A stretch of 64,000 nt of DNA, taken from NCBI GenBank assembly GCA_945896675.1, contig CAMDEM010000011.1, positions 1 to 64,000 of the forward strand, in the 5' to 3' direction. How positions within the stretch are numbered: the stretch's first letter is position 1; every line of letters starts with the position of its first letter. Below, in pieces: positions 52,018-62,189 of the stretch. Below the pieces are notes generated by a model that was not told the origin of the DNA, did not search any database, and saw only the letters and a list, made by a program, of their open reading frames with translations. Source of the stretch: Cyanobium sp. NIES-981 (GTDB taxonomy: Bacteria > Cyanobacteriota > Cyanobacteriia > PCC-6307 > Cyanobiaceae). The position numbers and the translations under genes were made by a program.

Positions 52018-52644
52018 ATGGATCAAGCCAAGGTGCTCATCATCGCCAGCGGCAATGCCGACAAGGTGCGCGAATTCAGCCATTTGCTGGCCACTCTGGA
52101 TCTGGAGATCCGCCCCCAACCCCCGGGCCTTGAGGTGGACGAAACCGGCAGCACGTTTGCGGAAAATGCCCGGCTTAAGGCCTCTGCCGTAGCCAAGGCC
52201 TCGGGCCAGTGGGCCCTCGCCGACGACTCAGGGCTGTGCGTCGACGCCCTTGGCGGGGCCCCTGGGGTGCACTCGGCCCGCTACGCCGAGAGCGATCAAG
52301 CCCGCATCAGCCGATTGCTGGTGGAACTGGCCGCCGCCAACGGCTGCATCGATCCTGAGCAAGGCCAGGGGAATCGCCGAGCCCAATTCGTGGCAGCGCT
52401 GGCAGTGGCTGATCCCAGCGGCGCCATCCAGCTAGAGGTGGAGGGGCACTGCCCTGGAGAAATCCTCACCAGCCCAAGGGGTGAAGGGGGCTTTGGCTAT
52501 GACCCGGTCTTTTACGTGCCCGAAGCAGGCCAAACCTTCGCGGAAATGGCCAAAGAGCTCAAAGGCCGCATTGGCCATCGCGGGCGAGCCTTTGCAAAGC
52601 TTTCAGAACATCTTGCAGCCCTGAATCTCGTCAAAACTCAATAA
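52018..52644 (+). CDS. rdgB: Non-canonical purine NTP pyrophosphatase (RdgB/HAM1)
   Basis: RdgB removes dITP, ITP and XTP from the nucleotide pool. From the ATG at 52018 the protein has 208 residues: VLIIASGNADKVREFSHLL, ETGSTFAENARLKA, ALADDSGLCVDALGGAPGVHSARYA, LTSPRGEGGFGYDPVFYVP and MAKELKGRIGHRGRAF. All substrate and metal motifs are present. A TTG at 51994 is a possible longer start. A decayed copy of its last third is found at 54093-54294, on the far side of RgpF-A. Confidence 0.95.
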   Translation: MDQAKVLIIASGNADKVREFSHLLATLDLEIRPQPPGLEVDETGSTFAENARLKASAVAKASGQWALADDSGLCVDALGGAPGVHSARYAESDQARISRLLVELAAANGCIDPEQGQGNRRAQFVAALAVADPSGAIQLEVEGHCPGEILTSPRGEGGFGYDPVFYVPEAGQTFAEMAKELKGRIGHRGRAFAKLSEHLAALNLVKTQ

Positions 52645-52651
52645 AAACCCC

Positions 52652-53803
52652 ATGCAACTTGGGCCAGCAAAAATCTCTAGGGAAATCCGAAGACTATTTC
52701 GGCAACCGTTGGAAAACCTTGGCTATACGGCCAACAGAATATTTCACGACCTGATCATCAGACCGCACAATATCGTCTCACAAGGAAATGGCCTCCATAG
52801 CCAAAAGATTGCAATTTACCTCATATTCCCCCAGGAAGGCCTTAATTTTTCTCACCGAAAAACGATAGACGAACTATCAAGAAATCACTACAGAATCATT
52901 GCCGTAAGCAACCTAAAGCTAAAAAATGAAGACAAAGACGAGCTCCTCAACAGCGTCAGCCAGCTCATTGAACGTAAAAATTTTGGGTATGATTTTGCTG
53001 GCTATCGCGAAGGCATTCTCTACAATCTCAGAGAAATTCGAAACGCGCAAAAGCTTTTCCTCATCAATGATTCTACAATCTTTCCAATTCAGAAGACTTC
53101 CAACTGGATCAAACAAGCAGAGCAAAGTGGGTACGCCCTAACAGGCGCAATAAGCTCATACGGGAACAACATTAAAGTGAAAACAATCACAGACAACATC
53201 GACCTTGTAAAAACCAATAACGACAGAAGGATTAGACGCGGAATTCATTACTCGTCTTTCGCGCTTATGCTCGACAAAGAGATATGCAGGACCACGTTTT
53301 TATCTGGATTCTTTGGAAGACTAAGGCTATCAAATAGCAGGGCCAATGTAATCAGACTTGGAGAAATTGGACTCAGCCGAGCCATTAGAGAAGCAGGATT
53401 TACCCATGGCTACACTTTAACTCCCGAAGCCATTAAAGAAGCCATTAAAGAAGTAGATAACCACGAACTACTCAAAGCCTTAAAGAATGCACTAATTCCA
53501 AGCGACAGCACCTTCGGGCATCAATTGCAAGCCCTAATCGACAGTTTTGAAGAAAATTCAACTGCGTGGAAAAAGGACAGCGCTCAGGCTCTCTTCGTAT
53601 TATCAACACAATACCATCCTGCCTACATGCTTCCACACTTATTGTATTCTAAATTAAAATTTCCTTTTCTTAAAAAAGCAGTTGCCCGGAGACTTGGGCC
53701 GAGGGGAGCAAATGTATACAACCTAATTTTACGGCAGAGCAACAATGCAGAGGAAGTCGTTACAGACCTAAGCGAAGCTGGGAATTCGGCTCGAAAGATT
53801 TGA
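52652..53803 (+). CDS. RgpF-like (rhamnan synthesis F family) protein, copy A
   Basis: The 383-residue protein has the RgpF core IAIYLIFPQEGLNFSHRKTI, an IIAVSNLKL segment, RKNFGYDFAGYREGIL and LFLINDSTIFPIQKTS. Members take part in rhamnose-glucose or similar surface polysaccharide synthesis. The gene begins 7 bp after rdgB and is much more AT-rich than the genes to its left, which suggests transfer. An EAIKEAIKE repeat lies near residue 265. A frameshifted relative, copy B, lies 500 bp downstream. Confidence 0.82.
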   Translation: MQLGPAKISREIRRLFRQPLENLGYTANRIFHDLIIRPHNIVSQGNGLHSQKIAIYLIFPQEGLNFSHRKTIDELSRNHYRIIAVSNLKLKNEDKDELLNSVSQLIERKNFGYDFAGYREGILYNLREIRNAQKLFLINDSTIFPIQKTSNWIKQAEQSGYALTGAISSYGNNIKVKTITDNIDLVKTNNDRRIRRGIHYSSFALMLDKEICRTTFLSGFFGRLRLSNSRANVIRLGEIGLSRAIREAGFTHGYTLTPEAIKEAIKEVDNHELLKALKNALIPSDSTFGHQLQALIDSFEENSTAWKKDSAQALFVLSTQYHPAYMLPHLLYSKLKFPFLKKAVARRLGPRGANVYNLILRQSNNAEEVVTDLSEAGNSARKI

Positions 53804-53855
53804 TCTCTAGAGCCGAATCAATGTCAAGAAACCAATTCTCCCAAGTCAAATACCC

Positions 53856-54096
53856 TTAGAGTGATGCCCAGCTCCCGTGCAGCCCATACGGCATTGCCAC
53901 GGGCAGCTCAATCACCGCCTGCTCAGCCATTGTTGAGGCGTTGAGGATCACCAAGTCGCTGCCATTGCGGGCGCCGTTCCAAATTACGATAAGCACCCAA
54001 CCCTCGTCTTCGTTGGTGGCACCAGGCCGGGGAACCATGATCGGTTCACTCACGAATCCGCGCGGTGCAGCACTCCACACGCGCCGCTCTCCGATC
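53856..54096 (-). pseudogene. Detached 3' end of a carotenoid oxygenase gene
   Basis: This fragment encodes about 73 residues that match the C-terminus of the full oxygenase at 55434-56957 at all but two positions, from ERRVWSAAPRGFVSEPIM to AMPYGLHGSW. It then diverges and stops after three residues. The last iron-ligand His (HGSW) is present, but the rest of the enzyme is absent. At DNA level roughly nine of ten positions agree, and most differences are silent. The fragment ends abruptly at about 54092, where it is joined to an rdgB relic on the opposite strand. Confidence 0.88.
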
Positions 54097-54294
54097 AGGG
54101 GGCATCCTCTCCAGCCCCAGTGGAGAATGCAATTTTGGCTGTGACCCAATCATTTACGTACCCCCAAAGGACTCCCCCCTTATGCAGAGATAAACAAAGA
54201 ACTCAAAGTCCACAACGTGCACAGCCGGCGATCGACTGGCGCAGCATTTAGCATTATGTCCCAAAATTACAAAAATCAATTAAGATCAAGCTAG
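54093..54294 (+). pseudogene. Decayed 3' end of a second rdgB copy
   Basis: Read on the plus strand, this stretch gives GGILSSPSGECNFGCDPIIY and then VPPKDSP, followed after a one-base shift in a run of six C (54174-54179) by YAEINKELKVHNVHSRRS and a tail ending at the TAG at 54292. The intact RdgB has EILTSPRGEGGFGYDPVFYVP and FAEMAKELKGRIGHRGRAF in the same order. The conserved GFGYDP motif is damaged (FGCDP) and the frame is broken. It sits directly upstream of RgpF-B, just as rdgB sits upstream of RgpF-A. Confidence 0.75.
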
Positions 54295-54320
54295 AAATTT
54301 GTCCACCCAACAGATTCGAG

Positions 54321-55450
54321 ATGATCGAGAAAGTCTTGCGCGAGGCAAACAGACTTAGGCTTCAAATCGCCAGCCTGCCAAAATGGGCAGTCAATCTAAT
54401 ATTTACCAGCGCCAACACAGACCTTGCCCTCACGCAAAAAAGCAAGGCCACCAAAGGAAGACTGAAAAACAGTGGGAAGATAGCAATCTACCTTATATTT
54501 CCAATCAATGGGCTTAACCAATACCACAAGAGAACATTAGACGAGCTTCAACGCAATAACTACTCTCCGATCATCATTAGCAATTCCCGGCTACAAGAAA
54601 GCGATCTAAATTTTCTCGAGGACAATAGCCAACTAATAATCGAACGCGAAAATCTTGGATACGACTTTGGCGGATACCGGGAGGGAATTCTTGCCAGCTC
54701 AAGTATTCTCAAAAGCTGCAGAAAACTTTTACTGCTAAACGACTCGACAATATTCCCCCTACAGAAAAACTCCACATGGATACAAAGAGCAGAGCAGAGT
54801 GGCTTTGACTTCACTGGCTCAATTAGCATGAACGGGCACAAAAGCCAAAAAACATGAGAGCCAGACTACCTAAGCTCGAATGCATTAATACAAAAAGCAG
54901 AAAGTTTCACTATCCTTCATTCGCAATAATGCTGGATGCGTCTATTGCCCAAGGGGAGGAACTGCAACACTTTTTCAGAAAGCTTAAGCCAAGCAACCTA
55001 AAGAAAGAAGTGGTCAAGAGAGGAGAGATTGGGCTCAGCAAGTGGGCTATCAAGCAAGGCTATAGCCATGGAAGCTTAATAAGCAGAAAAGACATTTTTG
55101 CAGCCATCAAAATTCTTGACCACCAAGAGTTACTCAAAGAACTGAACATGGCAATAACCCCAAGGCACGCGGAAAGATATGATCAATTTACCCGGGATCT
55201 TGAGTCACTCGCCTTGGATTTCAAAGCAGATTGCGACGACTGGCGAAGCCACGCCATTCATGCTCTTTGCAATTTATCCTTGCGCTATCACCCAGCCTAT
55301 ACCCTTGCTCACTTATTATGCACAAAGTGCGAGTTCCCATTCCTAAAAAAAGCAATTCAATCAAAAGGTAGTCTGGGGAAATTGACTTACAACAAAATAC
55401 TGGGCACAAGTGCTGTTCAGTGCAGGCAGAATATTAATGCTCTTGAATAG
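54321..55450 (+). pseudogene. RgpF-like copy B, split by a frameshift
   Basis: Two overlapping frames (54321-54857 and 54854-55450) together cover a complete RgpF-like protein. The first has IAIYLIFPINGLNQYHKRTL, ERENLGYDFGGYREGIL and LLLNDSTIFPLQKNSTW. The second carries FHYPSFAIMLD, KRGEIGLSKWAIKQGYSHG and LRYHPAYTLAHLL. Both match copy A in order and spacing, with about half the residues identical. The break lies at a run of six A (54847-54852); one more A would restore a single frame. The two frames overlap as ATGA, so coupled translation of two half-proteins is conceivable. The 3' end overlaps the oxygenase gene by 17 bp. Confidence 0.75.
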
Positions 55451-56957
55451 GCCCAAGCATCCCCGCTCCTACCCAGCTGCCGTGGAGGCCGTAGGGCATG
55501 GCCACCGGCAACTCAATCACCGCCTGCTCAGCCATGGTTGAGGCGTTGAGGATCACCAAGTCGCTGCCATTACGGGCACCATTCCAGATCACGGTGAGCA
55601 CCCAACCCTCGTCTTCGTTGGTGGCATCAGGACGGGGAACCATGATCGGTTCACTCACGAATCCGCGCGGTGCAGCACTCCACACGCGCCTTTCTCCAGT
55701 CTGCAGGTCAAGCTTTTTGATGGCTTGCAGGGGGTCATTGCCCTGATCGCGTTCGGCCACGGCCATCCAGCCAAAACGGGCCGGTAAGCCTTGCCTGGTG
55801 GGATTAACCATCGCGAATTCACAGCAACGTTCACTGAGACGCTCACAGGTGAGGTTGCCGGTAGTGAGATCAATGCGGCAACGCTCAAGTAGGCCTTCGG
55901 GGATGAGCTCGAAATCAATCGAACGGAAATCCACATCGGGACCAACGGAAGGAAAATCGGCGTAAAAAATGCTCTCCACAACGAGCTGATCGCCCTCCTC
56001 ATAGGCATTGAGGTGGTGGAAGACAAACCCTTCAGGCGCATCAATCAACCGGGGCTGCTGCCCAGCAAACGCTCCACCATCGCGAGGCACCAACCAGAAC
56101 TGGGCCTGGCCACCTGCCTTGGAGCTCAAACACTGGGCCGCTCCCTTTTGCCCCAACACAAACGGCAAGGGGTTGAAATCGACTGCGTTTTGAAGGAACA
56201 CAGCCCAGTTGGGCGTGATCGCGAAGTCATGCAGAAAGGCGAAGCCCTTGAAGCCGTCACTCCGATCCGCCACCAATTGACCGGCCCTGGGGCCCTCGGT
56301 AGCGAACTCCATCAACCGCAAGGTGCTACGCGGGCCTGTCTTCACCCCAAAGGTGACCATGCGGGGTTCGCCGTGGTGGCCGGGATCAAAGCGAGGGTGG
56401 GCGCTGAAGGCTTCACCTGGCTTGAGCACCCCATTCAGCAAGCTCAGGCCCCGGGTCTCGAGGGTGGCTGGATCGAGGGCGTGGGGGGAACTGGCCTCCC
56501 AAAGGGCAAGCAGGTCATCGCCAAGGCGCACCACATGGGTGTTGGCAATATTCTTGAGCCGTAGATCAAAGGCATTGGCCAAAGGGCCACCGGGCTTCTG
56601 GGTGCCAAAAACGCCGCGATACAACACCTGGTCTGCAGCTTCCTCAGCCAGCCAGCCCTCTGTACGCACGAAGCGATTCGTAAACAGTGCGCCACCTTCA
56701 GAAAAGCGCAAGGCGCAGATCATGCCGTCGCCATCGAAGGGGTGGTGCACCCAACGGCCATCGCGCTCCAGCCGCCCAGGGCCATTGCGATAGAGGCAGC
56801 CACTCAGGTCAGGGGGAATCTCTCCGCGGGCGGCCACCAGGGGTTCGTTCTCAAGCTCCACCTCCACATTGCGAAAGGCACCAGCCCAGTCATCACGGTC
56901 GTAGGTGCTTGGGGGTGATGGCAGATCCGAAAGGGTTGGCACAATCGCAGGTGACAT
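55434..56957 (-). CDS. Carotenoid cleavage oxygenase family protein
   Basis: The protein of about 507 residues is an RPE65/carotenoid oxygenase. The four iron-ligand histidines are visible in FSAHPRFDPGHHGEP, FLHDFAITPNWAVF, FVFHHLNAYEEGD and GLHGSWVGAGML. The N-terminal PPDLSGCLYRNGPGRLERDGR is also typical. It would cleave carotenoids or apocarotenoids oxidatively. The ATG at 56957 is chosen because the upstream frame overlaps the ABC transporter gene. A detached copy of its 3' end lies at 53856-54096. Confidence 0.92.
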   Translation of the reverse strand: MSPAIVPTLSDLPSPPSTYDRDDWAGAFRNVEVELENEPLVAARGEIPPDLSGCLYRNGPGRLERDGRWVHHPFDGDGMICALRFSEGGALFTNRFVRTEGWLAEEAADQVLYRGVFGTQKPGGPLANAFDLRLKNIANTHVVRLGDDLLALWEASSPHALDPATLETRGLSLLNGVLKPGEAFSAHPRFDPGHHGEPRMVTFGVKTGPRSTLRLMEFATEGPRAGQLVADRSDGFKGFAFLHDFAITPNWAVFLQNAVDFNPLPFVLGQKGAAQCLSSKAGGQAQFWLVPRDGGAFAGQQPRLIDAPEGFVFHHLNAYEEGDQLVVESIFYADFPSVGPDVDFRSIDFELIPEGLLERCRIDLTTGNLTCERLSERCCEFAMVNPTRQGLPARFGWMAVAERDQGNDPLQAIKKLDLQTGERRVWSAAPRGFVSEPIMVPRPDATNEDEGWVLTVIWNGARNGSDLVILNASTMAEQAVIELPVAMPYGLHGSWVGAGMLGPIQEH

Positions 56958-56971
56958 AGAGAAAAGCCTGA

Positions 56972-58705
56972 CTAGGCGCTGGCGAATTGAGTCGAAAATA
57001 GGCGTGAATAAACGCCTCCGTGGCCCAAAAGTGCGGCGTGGGTGCCGGATTCCACCACCTGGCCCCCAGCAATCACACAGATGCAATCGGCATTCACCAC
57101 CGTGGAAAGGCGATGGGCCACCACCAGGGTGGTGCGGTTGGCCATGAGACGATCCAGGGCCTCCTGAACCACCTTTTCGGATGCCGAATCAAGGGCCGAC
57201 GTGGCCTCATCCAAAAACAGGATCGGGGCGTTTTTAATCAGGGCCCTGGCAATGGCCACCCGCTGTCTTTGCCCCCCGGACAACATCGTTCCATTTTCGC
57301 CAATCAGGGTGTTGTAGCCGTCGGGTAACTGCACAATGAAATCATGGGCATTCGCTGCACGGGCTGCAGCCTCAATACGTTGAGGGCTGGAATCGGTATG
57401 GCCATAGGCGATATTATTAGCGACGGTGTCATTAAAGAGGAAAGTATTCTGATCAACAACCGAGATTTGCTTGCGCAAATCATCAAGCGAGAGATCACGA
57501 AGGTCGATTCCATCGAGGGTAATGGCACCTGCTGTTGGTTCATAGAGGCGGCAAAAGAGATCAATAATTGTGCTCTTGCCTCCACCGCTTGATCCCACCA
57601 GGGCCACGGTGCGGCCCTTGAGAATTTCAAGGTTGAGCTGATTAATAACGTCATCATCGCCGTAGCCAAAACACACCCCCTTCGCAATCAGAGCGTCAGA
57701 GAAGTTTCCGATAGTTTGAGGGGCCAAGGCCTCAGCAGGGTCGGAGGGTACATCAAGAATTGCATAAAGATCCTCCGCCGCAGAAGCTCCCTGCTGCCAG
57801 GACGTATTCGACCTGGCGATACTTTTAAAGGGCGCATAACACAGATAGAGGGAGGTCAAAAAGGCGAACAAGCTGCCGGTCGTGCGGGCTCCCGCAATCA
57901 CGCTTTCTCCGCCGTACACCAAGACGGCACTAAACCCCACCGCCCCGAGCAATTCCATCAAAGGCTGGTTAGCCAGCTTGGCCCGAGTGGTCTTGAGAGC
58001 GCTATCTCGTACTGACTTATTTTCAGACTCAAATCGACGCAGCTCATAGGCCTGCATACCAAAAATCTTGACCACCCTGGAACCCACAATCGACTCCTGG
58101 AGATAGGTCGCCAACCGGGCAAGACTTGACTGACCCTGCTTCGACGTTCGCCTCACCTTTTTCGAAGACTTAATGACAGGATAAATAGCGAAGGGAAAGA
58201 GAATAAAAGCTATCAAAGACAGCAGCCAATCCTGATAAAAAGCAACCGAAACCAGAGCGACAAGGGTAATACCATCCTTAATAACCGAGACGAATCCGTC
58301 CACAATCCCGCCCTTAACAAGATTCACGTCCGAAAGAACCCTTGAGACCAGGACAGTCGAAGGGTTTTTATCGATGTACGACTGTGGCAAGTCTAAAATT
58401 TTTGCCGCCAAAGTATTGCGCAGATCGGCCGTCATCTCCTGGCCCACAATCTCCGTAAGATAATTGCCTAAATACTGGGCCGCCGCACGGATTCCAATGA
58501 CAACAACAATAGCAACCGGAGCGCTGTACAACCGAAATCGATCCTGGGACGGAAGAACCTCATCAAAGAGGTACTTGATCACCAGGGGTACGAGCCCCGT
58601 GGAAGCGCCGTAGATAAAGTTAAAAAAGAGTGACAGAGAAAAGCTGGGCCATAGATAGCGGCGCCCATAAAGAGCAAGTCTCCAATAGACAGATTGCTGA
58701 CTCAT
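56972..58705 (-). CDS. ABC exporter, MsbA-type
   Basis: The 577-residue half-transporter has an N-terminal six-helix membrane domain (FNFIYGASTGLVPLVIKYLFD onward) and a C-terminal ATPase domain. Walker A is GSSGGGKST, the signature is MLSGGQRQRVAIARAL, Walker B is ILFLDEATSALD and the H loop is VVAHRLST. The position directly after lpxB suggests lipid A/LPS flipping like MsbA, but related exporters carry other lipids. Its ATG overlaps the lpxB stop by 4 bp. Confidence 0.9.
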   Translation of the reverse strand: MSQQSVYWRLALYGRRYLWPSFSLSLFFNFIYGASTGLVPLVIKYLFDEVLPSQDRFRLYSAPVAIVVVIGIRAAAQYLGNYLTEIVGQEMTADLRNTLAAKILDLPQSYIDKNPSTVLVSRVLSDVNLVKGGIVDGFVSVIKDGITLVALVSVAFYQDWLLSLIAFILFPFAIYPVIKSSKKVRRTSKQGQSSLARLATYLQESIVGSRVVKIFGMQAYELRRFESENKSVRDSALKTTRAKLANQPLMELLGAVGFSAVLVYGGESVIAGARTTGSLFAFLTSLYLCYAPFKSIARSNTSWQQGASAAEDLYAILDVPSDPAEALAPQTIGNFSDALIAKGVCFGYGDDDVINQLNLEILKGRTVALVGSSGGGKSTIIDLFCRLYEPTAGAITLDGIDLRDLSLDDLRKQISVVDQNTFLFNDTVANNIAYGHTDSSPQRIEAAARAANAHDFIVQLPDGYNTLIGENGTMLSGGQRQRVAIARALIKNAPILFLDEATSALDSASEKVVQEALDRLMANRTTLVVAHRLSTVVNADCICVIAGGQVVESGTHAALLGHGGVYSRLFSTQFASA

Positions 58706-59835
58706 GGCATCAATCTAGCAAGCTCTTCTGCGGCCCTTTGCGAGGCACCAGACTCACCCATCGCCTTGCGCAAGTCCTGGACAGCCTGCAGACAACCTTC
58801 CCGATTGCCTGCCATCTTGCGCACGGCACGCACAATGTTGCCCGCCGTTACATCGCGCTGCAGCAATTCAGGGAAAAAAGGTCGTCCCAGCACCACATTG
58901 GGAAGGCCAACCATGCGGTGTCCAATCACAAGTTTTGCCAATAGATAGGTCAAGAACGAGAAGCGATAAAGAATCACATGGGGGCAACCCAACAGGGCAG
59001 CTTCCAGGGTTGCTGTACCGGAGGCAATCACACCCGCATTTGCCGCCGCGATCATGTTGTATGCGTCCCCCTCTACAACTGGAATCGGGAAGGGAAGGGT
59101 CCCATGGATCTGCTCGAGGTAGGCCTGATCAATGGTGGGAGCCTTCAACAGGGCCACCTGCCAGCCATCAGCCATCAAGATTTGGGCTGCCGCCAACATC
59201 GCAGGCAACAGCAACCGAACTTCCGAGCGCCGGCTACCCGGCATCAAGACTAAAAGCGGCTGCTGATCTGAAAATCCATGGACCGCGCGGCTGTCTTGGG
59301 CCGAGCGGGTGACCTCGAGCCCATCCACCAAGGGATGGCCCACGTAGCGGGCAAAGTCGCGGCCGTGGGCATTGAAAATCCCCGCCTCAAACGGAAAAAT
59401 TACAGCGAGTCGGTCGATGATACGGGCCATTGTTTTGGCCCTGCCCTTCCCCCAGGCCCAGACCTGGGGGGCGATATAAAAGAAGACCGGAATACCTCGC
59501 TTGTGGGCCTCCTTGGCCACAAACATGTTGAAGCCCGGGTAGTCCACCAGGGCCACCACATCGGGCCTGTGCTGATCCATCTGGGCCTTGAGCATCTCCA
59601 TCACCCGGTGATGGCGGGGAATGCTGCCGACAATCTCGACCAACCCAGCGGCAGAGAGGGTGCGCACATCGGCCAAAACCTCCATGCCATTGGAGCGCAG
59701 GTGATCACCCCCTACGCCAACCACGGTCACATCCGGCTGTTGACGTCGCAGGGCTTGGACCAGGGCCCCACCATGCATATCGCCGGAAGCTTCTCCCGCC
59801 ACCAGCAGTACACGCTTGGGCCGCGTTTCAAACAT
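58702..59835 (-). CDS. lpxB: Lipid-A-disaccharide synthase
   Basis: LpxB condenses UDP-diacylglucosamine with lipid X to form the lipid A disaccharide. The 377-residue GT19 protein has LLVAGEASGDMHGGALVQAL, LVDYPGFNMFVAKEAHKRG, YIAPQVWAWGKGRAK, VLMPGSRRSEVRLLLP and ASGTATLEAALLGCPHVILYR. The ATG at 59835 or a start two codons upstream is possible. Its 5' end overlaps the lpxK 3' end, and its 3' end overlaps the ABC gene. Confidence 0.95.
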   Translation of the reverse strand: MFETRPKRVLLVAGEASGDMHGGALVQALRRQQPDVTVVGVGGDHLRSNGMEVLADVRTLSAAGLVEIVGSIPRHHRVMEMLKAQMDQHRPDVVALVDYPGFNMFVAKEAHKRGIPVFFYIAPQVWAWGKGRAKTMARIIDRLAVIFPFEAGIFNAHGRDFARYVGHPLVDGLEVTRSAQDSRAVHGFSDQQPLLVLMPGSRRSEVRLLLPAMLAAAQILMADGWQVALLKAPTIDQAYLEQIHGTLPFPIPVVEGDAYNMIAAANAGVIASGTATLEAALLGCPHVILYRFSFLTYLLAKLVIGHRMVGLPNVVLGRPFFPELLQRDVTAGNIVRAVRKMAGNREGCLQAVQDLRKAMGESGASQRAAEELARLMP

Positions 59836-60829
59836 GACCAATCAAGCCAAGTACCTGCTGGACTAACGGGTCGAGGGCCACGGGATCGATGCTCAAAGGG
59901 ATCGGGACAACCTTGCTTCGAAACTGCAATGGCAGGCGATTGGCATCCTTGTTGGTGGTGACGAGGACAGCACCTTGGGCTTGGGCCACGGCCACGAGGC
60001 GTTCCAATTCGGCATCAGCATAGGGATGGTGATCCGGGAAGCTTTCCTGGGCGATCACCCGCAGGCCTCGGCCGCTCAGGGCTTGGAAAAACTTCTGCGG
60101 CAAGCCAATACCGCAGAAGGCAACCAAGGGCCTGCCCTGCAAGCCATCAGGTAGCTCGAGCTGAAAGTGCAAGCTGCACCGGGGCTTCTGGCTGGGCCAA
60201 GGCAACTGGGCTGCGCCCCCAGCGCGGGCACCCATGCCCGTTCCCGTCAGCACCAGCAAATCGGCCCTGCCCAGGTGGCAAGCCGGCTCCCGCAATGGTC
60301 CAGCAGGAAAGACCTGACCATTGCCAAGCCCGTGCTGGGCATCCAGCAGCGTGATATCCAGATCCCTAGCCAGCGGCCAGTGCTGCAGGCCATCATCGAG
60401 CAAGAGGAGTGTGGCGCCCTGATCAATCGCCAGGCGGGCACCCAGGCGCCGATTGGATCCCACCCAAATCTGTACCTGCTCGAGCTGGTGGGCGTACTCC
60501 AGCGCCTCATCTCCCACCTCGGCGTAGCTCGCCCCTGGAGTCACCAGCACGGGTTCGCGCCGCTTGGTGCCATAGCCCCGCAACAGCACAGCCACGGCGT
60601 AGCCCCGCTGCTGCAAGGCCCGGGCCAGGCCCAATACCACAGGGGTTTTACCCGTTCCCCCCAGGGTGATGTTGCCGATGGAGATGACTGGCACGGGCAA
60701 CTGCAACGGCCGCGTCGTCGATCGGTGCAACCAAACCCCGACCCCATAGAGCCAAGACAAGGGCAACAGCACCCTGGCTAGGCCGCTAAGCCTGGGCTGA
60801 TACCAAAAGCTGGGGGCGTTGCGGGGCAT
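59828..60829 (-). CDS. lpxK: Tetraacyldisaccharide 4'-kinase
   Basis: LpxK phosphorylates the 4' position of the lipid A disaccharide at the membrane. The protein of about 333 residues has an N-terminal hydrophobic anchor (ARVLLPLSWLYGVGVWL) and the P-loop PVISIGNITLGGTGKTPVVL. VLLRGYGTKR, the DDGLQHWPLARDLDITLLD motif and FPAGPLREP follow, and a late VLVTTNKDANRL completes the set. All LpxK motifs are intact. The ATG at 60829 lies 5 bp after the waaA stop. Confidence 0.94.
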   Translation of the reverse strand: MPRNAPSFWYQPRLSGLARVLLPLSWLYGVGVWLHRSTTRPLQLPVPVISIGNITLGGTGKTPVVLGLARALQQRGYAVAVLLRGYGTKRREPVLVTPGASYAEVGDEALEYAHQLEQVQIWVGSNRRLGARLAIDQGATLLLLDDGLQHWPLARDLDITLLDAQHGLGNGQVFPAGPLREPACHLGRADLLVLTGTGMGARAGGAAQLPWPSQKPRCSLHFQLELPDGLQGRPLVAFCGIGLPQKFFQALSGRGLRVIAQESFPDHHPYADAELERLVAVAQAQGAVLVTTNKDANRLPLQFRSKVVPIPLSIDPVALDPLVQQVLGLIGHV

Positions 60830-60833
60830 GGCA

Positions 60834-62189
60834 CTAACGATCCGAAGGCTCCAGGGGTTGCGCCGGGGGCTGCGCCCCACCGGCGAGGGCCTCGATCAGC
60901 CCCGTGGCGATCTGGCGGGAGGGCCCATGCAGGACTACACCCGCTGGGACGACCATCGGTGGTCCTTCATTAGGACCTTGCCTCTGGGTGTTCCTCTGGA
61001 TTTCAAGCAAGCGGACCACCCCATCAAAGGCTTGGCTGGCCGTGGGGTATTGGTGCAAGACACCCGCTTCAGCCAGGGCTGCGGTGACATCGGAGAAGTT
61101 GGCCATGTCGGGGCCGCAGACCACCGGCTTAGCCAAAGCCGCCGGCTCTAGGGGATTTTGGCCCCCATGGGGTCGACCATTGGGATAAAAACTCCCCCCC
61201 ATCACCACCACCGAGACAGCGCCAATCCAGGAGCCCATCGCGCCGATGCAATCGGCCACCACCAGGTCGCAGCAGACCGGCTGGTCGCTGGCCGCAAGCT
61301 CAGTCCAAAGCGCTGCCCTAGGCACTTTGGCTTTCTGACGGGAGAAGGCAGCCCGGGCCAGCTCCAACACCTGGGCCGAACGCTGGGGGTGGCGCGGAGC
61401 GATCAACAACCCAATCGCGCCTGGCCCCTGGCGCGCCGGCGAACCAGCCAGCCAGGCCTCGATCCACTGCTGTTCTTCGCCCGCATGGCTACTCGCCAAG
61501 AGCACCACGGGCCGCCGCCCAAAAACCTGGCCCAACCGCTCCACGATGGGGCGACTCACCGCCAGGGGGGCCGCATCCCGCTTGGTGGAGCCAGCCGCCA
61601 CCACCGCCTGGGCCCCTAGCCGGCGAAAGCGCTCAGCATCCTGCTCGGATTGGGCAAAGCAGCGCTCAGCGCGGCCAATCACCCAGTTAGCAAACCAGCC
61701 AAGCCGTTGATGGTTGCGAAAGGAGCCCGCACTCATGCGGGCATTGATCAGCTGCAGCCGCGGCATGGCATGGACGATCTCCGGCCACAACTCCGCTTCC
61801 GCTAAAACCCCCAAACTTGGCCGCCAATGCAGCCGAAACGGCAGCCAACACAGCCAATGGTCGATCGGCACGTATTGGTGGATCACCCCAGGGGGCAAGA
61901 CCGATGGCGCCAGCCGAGCGGAGCTGCGCGTCACCGTGGTGAGCAACACCGGAATCCCGCCATCCAGCTCCTGGAGAGCAGCAAAAACGGGCAGCAAACT
62001 GTTGAGCTCGCCCACGCTGGCGGCGTGAAACCACAACAAAGGGCCCGGGGGGCGTGGGCTTGTCGGCCAGCCCAGGCGCTCCTGGATCCGGGAGGGATCT
62101 TCCTTGCCTTGCAGCAAACGCCAGAGCAACAGCAGTAGCGCCAAGGGGGTGAGCAGGAGCCACAGCAGGCGATAGAGCAGCAGAAGCAT
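60834..62189 (-). CDS. waaA: Kdo (3-deoxy-D-manno-octulosonic acid) transferase
   Basis: WaaA adds Kdo from CMP-Kdo to lipid IVA. The 451-residue GT30 protein has an N-terminal membrane anchor (LYRLLWLLLTPLALLLLL). LLWFHAASVGELNSLLPVF carries the catalytic glutamate, LAEAELWPEIVHAMPRL and INARMSAGSFRNHQRL follow, and VVMGGSFYPNGRPHGGQNPLEPAAL is typical. The set indicates a true WaaA. No kds genes for CMP-Kdo synthesis are in this window. Confidence 0.95.
   Translation of the reverse strand: MLLLLYRLLWLLLTPLALLLLLWRLLQGKEDPSRIQERLGWPTSPRPPGPLLWFHAASVGELNSLLPVFAALQELDGGIPVLLTTVTRSSARLAPSVLPPGVIHQYVPIDHWLCWLPFRLHWRPSLGVLAEAELWPEIVHAMPRLQLINARMSAGSFRNHQRLGWFANWVIGRAERCFAQSEQDAERFRRLGAQAVVAAGSTKRDAAPLAVSRPIVERLGQVFGRRPVVLLASSHAGEEQQWIEAWLAGSPARQGPGAIGLLIAPRHPQRSAQVLELARAAFSRQKAKVPRAALWTELAASDQPVCCDLVVADCIGAMGSWIGAVSVVVMGGSFYPNGRPHGGQNPLEPAALAKPVVCGPDMANFSDVTAALAEAGVLHQYPTASQAFDGVVRLLEIQRNTQRQGPNEGPPMVVPAGVVLHGPSRQIATGLIEALAGGAQPPAQPLEPSDR

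Follow-up and report, generated by a model that had tools for sequence, protein, structure and literature searches.

The window, a stretch of 64,000 nucleotides, is part of a 69-kb contig from a MAG of 1.97 Mb in 48 contigs. Between positions 52018 and 56957 it carries, in order, rdgB, RgpF-A, the tail of a carotenoid oxygenase gene (CCO), a joint, an rdgB tail, RgpF-B, and a full CCO gene (Table 1). This order had been read from the letters in an earlier note on this DNA, and it is present as claimed there. When unit A was aligned with unit B, as that note had proposed, the two proved collinear over their whole length (E=1e-91), far beyond chance. Three of its details needed revision. The joint exists but, by comparison with intact alleles, lies at ~54098-54104 instead of ~54092; the rdgB tail is present but is a decayed pseudogene; and the RgpF-B gene is present but is split by a one-base frameshift. 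The last two points had been missed.

Table 1. Features of the region from rdgB to CCO, in window coordinates
Feature	Position	Strand	Basis
rdgB, full, Ham1-type NTP pyrophosphatase	52018-52644	+	Pfam Ham1p_like 7.8e-59
Part of rdgB assigned to the A haplotype	from ~52204 onward		identity step vs G009:C17
Homologous recombination boundary inside rdgB, approximate	52158-52204	.	differences to G009:C17 dense up to 52203
RgpF-A, intact, 383 aa, RgpF-family glycosyltransferase	52652-53803	+	Pfam PF05045 2.2e-09
CCO tail, A haplotype, RPE65-type carotenoid oxygenase	53856-54097	-	91% nt to live tail
Joint of CCO tail and rdgB tail, AGGGG-like microhomology	54098-54104	.	CCO and rdgB alleles compared there
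rdgB tail, B haplotype, decayed pseudogene	54104 to ~54260	+	blastn to G008 and live rdgB
RgpF-B, frameshifted at A6 run	54321-55450	+	two ORFs
CCO, full gene, B-type C-terminal extension HGSWVGAGMLGPIQEH	55436-56957	-	Pfam RPE65 2.4e-128

The two RgpF proteins share 43-46% of their residues, in line with the earlier estimate of about half. RgpF-A follows the rdgB stop by 8 bp. In RgpF-B, a single-base frameshift at an A6 run (54847-54852) leaves two ORFs (54321-54857 and 54854-55450). Since RgpF-B is frameshifted, RgpF-A is the only clearly functional RgpF of the pair. A one-base deletion or a sequencing error would be the simpler explanation of the frameshift, and a phase-variable switch at the A6 run is possible. 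Programmed frameshifting was considered and rejected, as an A6 run followed by C forms no canonical -1 slippery heptamer in frame.

Both proteins pass the curated cut-off of the RgpF family profile PF05045 (25 bits), RgpF-A with 37 bits and the first half of RgpF-B with 30.2 bits, although these proteins of ~380 aa match only the first ~180 of the 503 profile positions. The AlphaFold2 model of RgpF-A (pLDDT 78) gave Z scores of 12-15 against GT-A glycosyltransferases and nucleotidyltransferases, its best structural matches being GT-A/nucleotide-sugar folds; a sequence search for solved structures gave no match to RgpF. Here RgpF is a lone gene amid housekeeping genes, without a rhamnan operon. 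Outside cyanobacteria, its nearest relatives belong to SAR86 and Alphaproteobacteria (30-34%). The SAR86 relative likewise stands alone, with an MmgE/PrpD-family gene on one side and HAD hydrolase/chorismate synthase genes on the other (L070:3353-10337), a layout shared by L071 and L076. No relatives of the RgpF proteins were found among viral contigs or phage records, which leaves a phage carrier of RgpF unsupported.

Among the 15 other genomes of the genus, 12 have an empty interval between rdgB and CCO, in which the matched ends of the two genes are no more than 85 bp apart. Of the three closest relatives (G009, G008, and G002), G008 and G002 have empty sites, and G009 carries an RgpF gene, RgpF-B', between rdgB and CCO. 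Two further genomes, G004 and G005, have other, unrelated genes there. Directly convergent rdgB and CCO are thus usually found in the genus, and RgpF is an accessory insert, since the site is usually empty, including in G008 and G002. Elsewhere in the family, the inserts at this site include anti-sigma RskA, DM13, SIMPL, an MFS transporter, glycosyl hydrolase 1, and a DXD glycosyltransferase (example loci with unrelated inserts: L060, L117, L120, L103, L087, and L092). Because unrelated genes occur there in other family genomes, the rdgB-CCO site tolerates many inserts.

Both RgpF types of the window were recovered in G009, on separate contigs. Contig C33 (L052) reads glmM-rdgB-RgpF-B'-CCO-msbA, with RgpF-B' as the sole insert and in single copy, starting ~30 bp after the final rdgB codon of the match. 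Contig C17 (L053) reads glmM-rdgB-RgpF-A and ends inside RgpF-A after 49 codons. Of the single-RgpF loci that the earlier note proposed to look for in relatives, that of B' was found complete, and for A the start next to rdgB was seen, up to the end of C17. Since C33 and C17 both carry glmM and rdgB and yet differ, this public MAG probably combines two strains. Among 251 sampled family genomes, close relatives of RgpF-A occurred only in the genome of the window and in G009, the other matches being weak.

The two copies in the window are nearer to alleles of other strains than to each other, as expected of stacked alleles. Specifically, RgpF-B is sister to B' in the tree (support 99/98), with RgpF-A outside, and the start of RgpF-A is identical to that on C17 over 49/49 aa. 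A, B, and B' group together, apart from the SAR86 and alphaproteobacterial relatives. A separate RgpF tree, one of the checks proposed at the outset, thus places A and B as non-sisters and B with the RgpF of another genome. The cargo is far more diverse than its flanks: RgpF-B and B' share 60-61% aa, with dN of 0.30 and dS of about 1.8-2.0 in both halves of the gene, each half being free of stops, whereas differences in the flanking genes reach about 10% at most. Altogether, the relatives favor allele stacking over duplication, because their sites are mostly empty, B' occurs alone elsewhere, and B is sister to B'. The earlier reading, that alleles of two lineages lie side by side rather than as a simple duplication, holds in this respect, with the two haplotypes separate elsewhere and A seen as far as its contig reaches.

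Comparison with C17 points to a homologous recombination boundary inside rdgB near 52204, because identity steps from 95.1% in the 3 kb before it (147/2978 differences) to 99.2% after 52203 (5/597 differences). Up to 52203, 405 differences were counted in 8353 sites. The break was chosen after viewing the data; the block permutations, of which 2/2000 gave any stretch equally similar, take the most similar stretch anywhere and so allow for this choice. The pattern suggests that RgpF-A and the 3' part of rdgB were recently exchanged between the lineage of the window and that of C17.

At the other end of unit A, the CCO tail (53867-54092, 226 nt) is 91% identical in nucleotides to the live gene (55472-55697). 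Over ~75 codons, the two differ in 18 synonymous and only 2 nonsynonymous codons, which bears out the earlier claim that the tails are nearly the same protein. Neutral drift simulated with 20 changes gave a mean of 14 nonsynonymous codons, and 2 or fewer in 0/5000 runs. The distance between remnant and live copy is about that between the CCO genes of sister species. Since its changes are nearly all synonymous, unlike the simulated drift, the tail diverged while still functional, in another lineage, and was orphaned recently. The two CCO copies end as different haplotypes: the remnant ends in HGSWASL*, like the empty-site alleles (HGSWAAA*), and the extension of the live gene resembles that of C33 and is of B type. 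A mosaic remnant, part resident and part donor, was also considered; the two shared derived sites in its favor are too few. The joint with the rdgB tail shows microhomology of a few bases, and exact matches between CCO and rdgB tail alleles reach 11 bp at most, with no long shared k-mer. A search of the other 15 genomes of the genus did not recover the joint, so that it is seen in the MAG of the window only.

The rdgB scar has a different character. It matches rdgB of G008 at 69% over 133 bp (blastn, E=5e-8) and the live copy at 77% over 60 bp (E=2e-7), whereas intact rdgB alleles differ from the live copy by 1-4 nt in the same part. The remnant carries a frameshift, its motif GGFGYDP reads CNFGCDP, and of the codon changes in its in-frame part 7 are nonsynonymous and 3 synonymous, a nonsynonymous share well above that of the CCO scar (7/3 against 2/18; Fisher p=0.0017). 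A single event of homology-facilitated illegitimate recombination (HFIR) should leave an identity step that marks the homologous crossover on one side, a joint that lacks or nearly lacks homology on the other, and two equally decayed scars. The first two are seen here; the third is not. Decay has gone much further in the rdgB scar than in the CCO scar, whereas one step predicts equal decay; the history of the locus therefore probably comprises at least two events, as judged from ~54-130 bp of rdgB remnant. A one-event version is thus disfavored, and we do not class the structure as the product of a single HFIR event.

Altogether, the stack is real: this lake picocyanobacterium has kept two alleles side by side in well-preserved form, and the locus is a clear illustration from nature of a known kind of recombination rather than of a new system. 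The explanation that we consider best, and likely to be correct, is a stack of two variable-cassette alleles, in which A-type DNA was imported into a B-type locus through a homologous end in rdgB and an illegitimate joint at the other end. The earlier proposal of recombination through conserved flanks thus stands for the rdgB side, but on the other side we find an illegitimate joint with microhomology.

A particular form of this explanation would have the joint and the tandem arrangement be old, with the present RgpF-A segment replacing an earlier gene in the first slot by ordinary double homologous recombination via rdgB and the CCO-tail remnant. The far greater decay of the rdgB remnant than of the CCO remnant fits this form, as does the recent exchange of RgpF-A and 3' rdgB with the C17 lineage. 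However, the rdgB remnant is short, and among the 15 other genomes of the genus none was found with another first-slot gene before the same joint; we regard this form as quite possible, if short of probable.

An assembly chimera of two co-occurring strains is very unlikely. The genome is a 48-contig MAG, and both alleles can share one bin, as they do in G009. However, misassembly driven by k-mers is improbable, because the exact match of at most 11 bp between CCO and rdgB tail alleles is too little to mislead a k-mer assembler. Moreover, the private decay of the rdgB remnant is absent from every intact allele, and the estimated contamination of the MAG is 0.07%. Tandem duplication within the lineage of a segment from the rdgB tail to the CCO tail, followed by RgpF divergence, fits a layout in which the segment begins within rdgB and stops within CCO, but is highly improbable given that RgpF-B groups with the RgpF of another genome and away from RgpF-A, that the changes in the CCO tail are nearly all synonymous, unlike the drift of a dead copy, and that the two CCO endings come from different haplotypes.

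The stacking of alleles may have proceeded as follows. The cassette would be an RgpF-family glycosyltransferase gene of GT-A type that lies between rdgB and CCO, two convergent genes. A B-type locus (rdgB-RgpF-B-CCO) would have received A-type DNA (rdgB-RgpF-A-CCO) from another lineage, a direction that we infer. On the rdgB side, homologous exchange would account for the identity step near 52204 against the relative that carries RgpF-A. On the other side, the A-type CCO tail is fused to the B-type rdgB tail, and the observed joint would be of illegitimate origin. The resident RgpF-B would thereby have been shifted downstream instead of replaced, and the rdgB tail had probably been orphaned by the time the A segment seen today came in. 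Since the assembly of C17 stops short of the end of the A haplotype, the donor type is known only in part.

RgpF-A lies 8 bp behind rdgB, where RgpF-B' is found in the relative, and has therefore probably become the gene that is expressed from the rdgB transcript. Scans for promoters and terminators in the region gave no more than in shuffled sequence. RgpF-B, removed from its place behind rdgB, would then have gained the frameshift that we observe, and the loss of that position may explain it. Since comEC and dprA homologues are present in the genome of the window, uptake of the A-type DNA by transformation is possible.

Phages and grazers are presumed to drive variation in the surface-glycan genes of picocyanobacteria. 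A surface-glycan role of RgpF is plausible given the predicted GT-A fold and the nearby lipid A genes, and the enzyme is, judging from family and fold, most likely to add a sugar to lipid A/core or to another surface glycan. After CCO come msbA, lpxB, lpxK, and a Kdo-transferase gene, a block that begins directly beyond CCO (window positions 56972-62189). Since msbA adjoins CCO in relatives that lack RgpF as well, this proximity is weak evidence for a glycan role. The locus may contribute to serotype-like diversity, as the earlier note proposed. Our literature searches turned up no relevant paper on RgpF or on LPS variation among freshwater picocyanobacteria.

The steps of a single-allele swap are rarely caught, and here both alleles and both scars are readable. 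The locus therefore offers a testable model of the exchange of one gene through conserved flanks, outside large genomic islands, and an example of a cargo gene that is highly diverse while its flanks differ by no more than about 10%. It would be a bolder proposal, and one that we consider unlikely, that cassettes are actively exchanged at the rdgB|CCO interval of these picocyanobacteria, with new glycosyltransferase alleles entering by transformation, occupying the expressed first place behind rdgB, and pushing older ones downstream. If true, surface-glycan genes would turn over at such a slot much as in an integron, but with no integrase involved.

Two known systems resemble this arrangement. 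HFIR is marked by a homologous anchor at one end and a joint lacking homology at the other (PMC3240628); likewise, the anchor in rdgB is homologous here and the other joint has microhomology only. Unlike HFIR as observed, the process here is deduced from natural sequence, and the unequally decayed scars suggest more than one event. In the orphan immunity gene arrays of the Vibrio cholerae T6SS (Kirchberger et al. 2017), new modules push old genes downstream, with homology on one side and proposed illegitimate recombination on the other, and the copies group with copies from other strains instead of with each other (PMC5361080). Our locus shares the single homologous side, the downstream displacement of the old gene, and the grouping of copies across strains. 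It differs in that its cargo is a glycosyltransferase, whereas theirs consists of effector-immunity pairs, in that we found only one stack, and in that the displaced RgpF-B is frameshifted, with no known reason for its retention.
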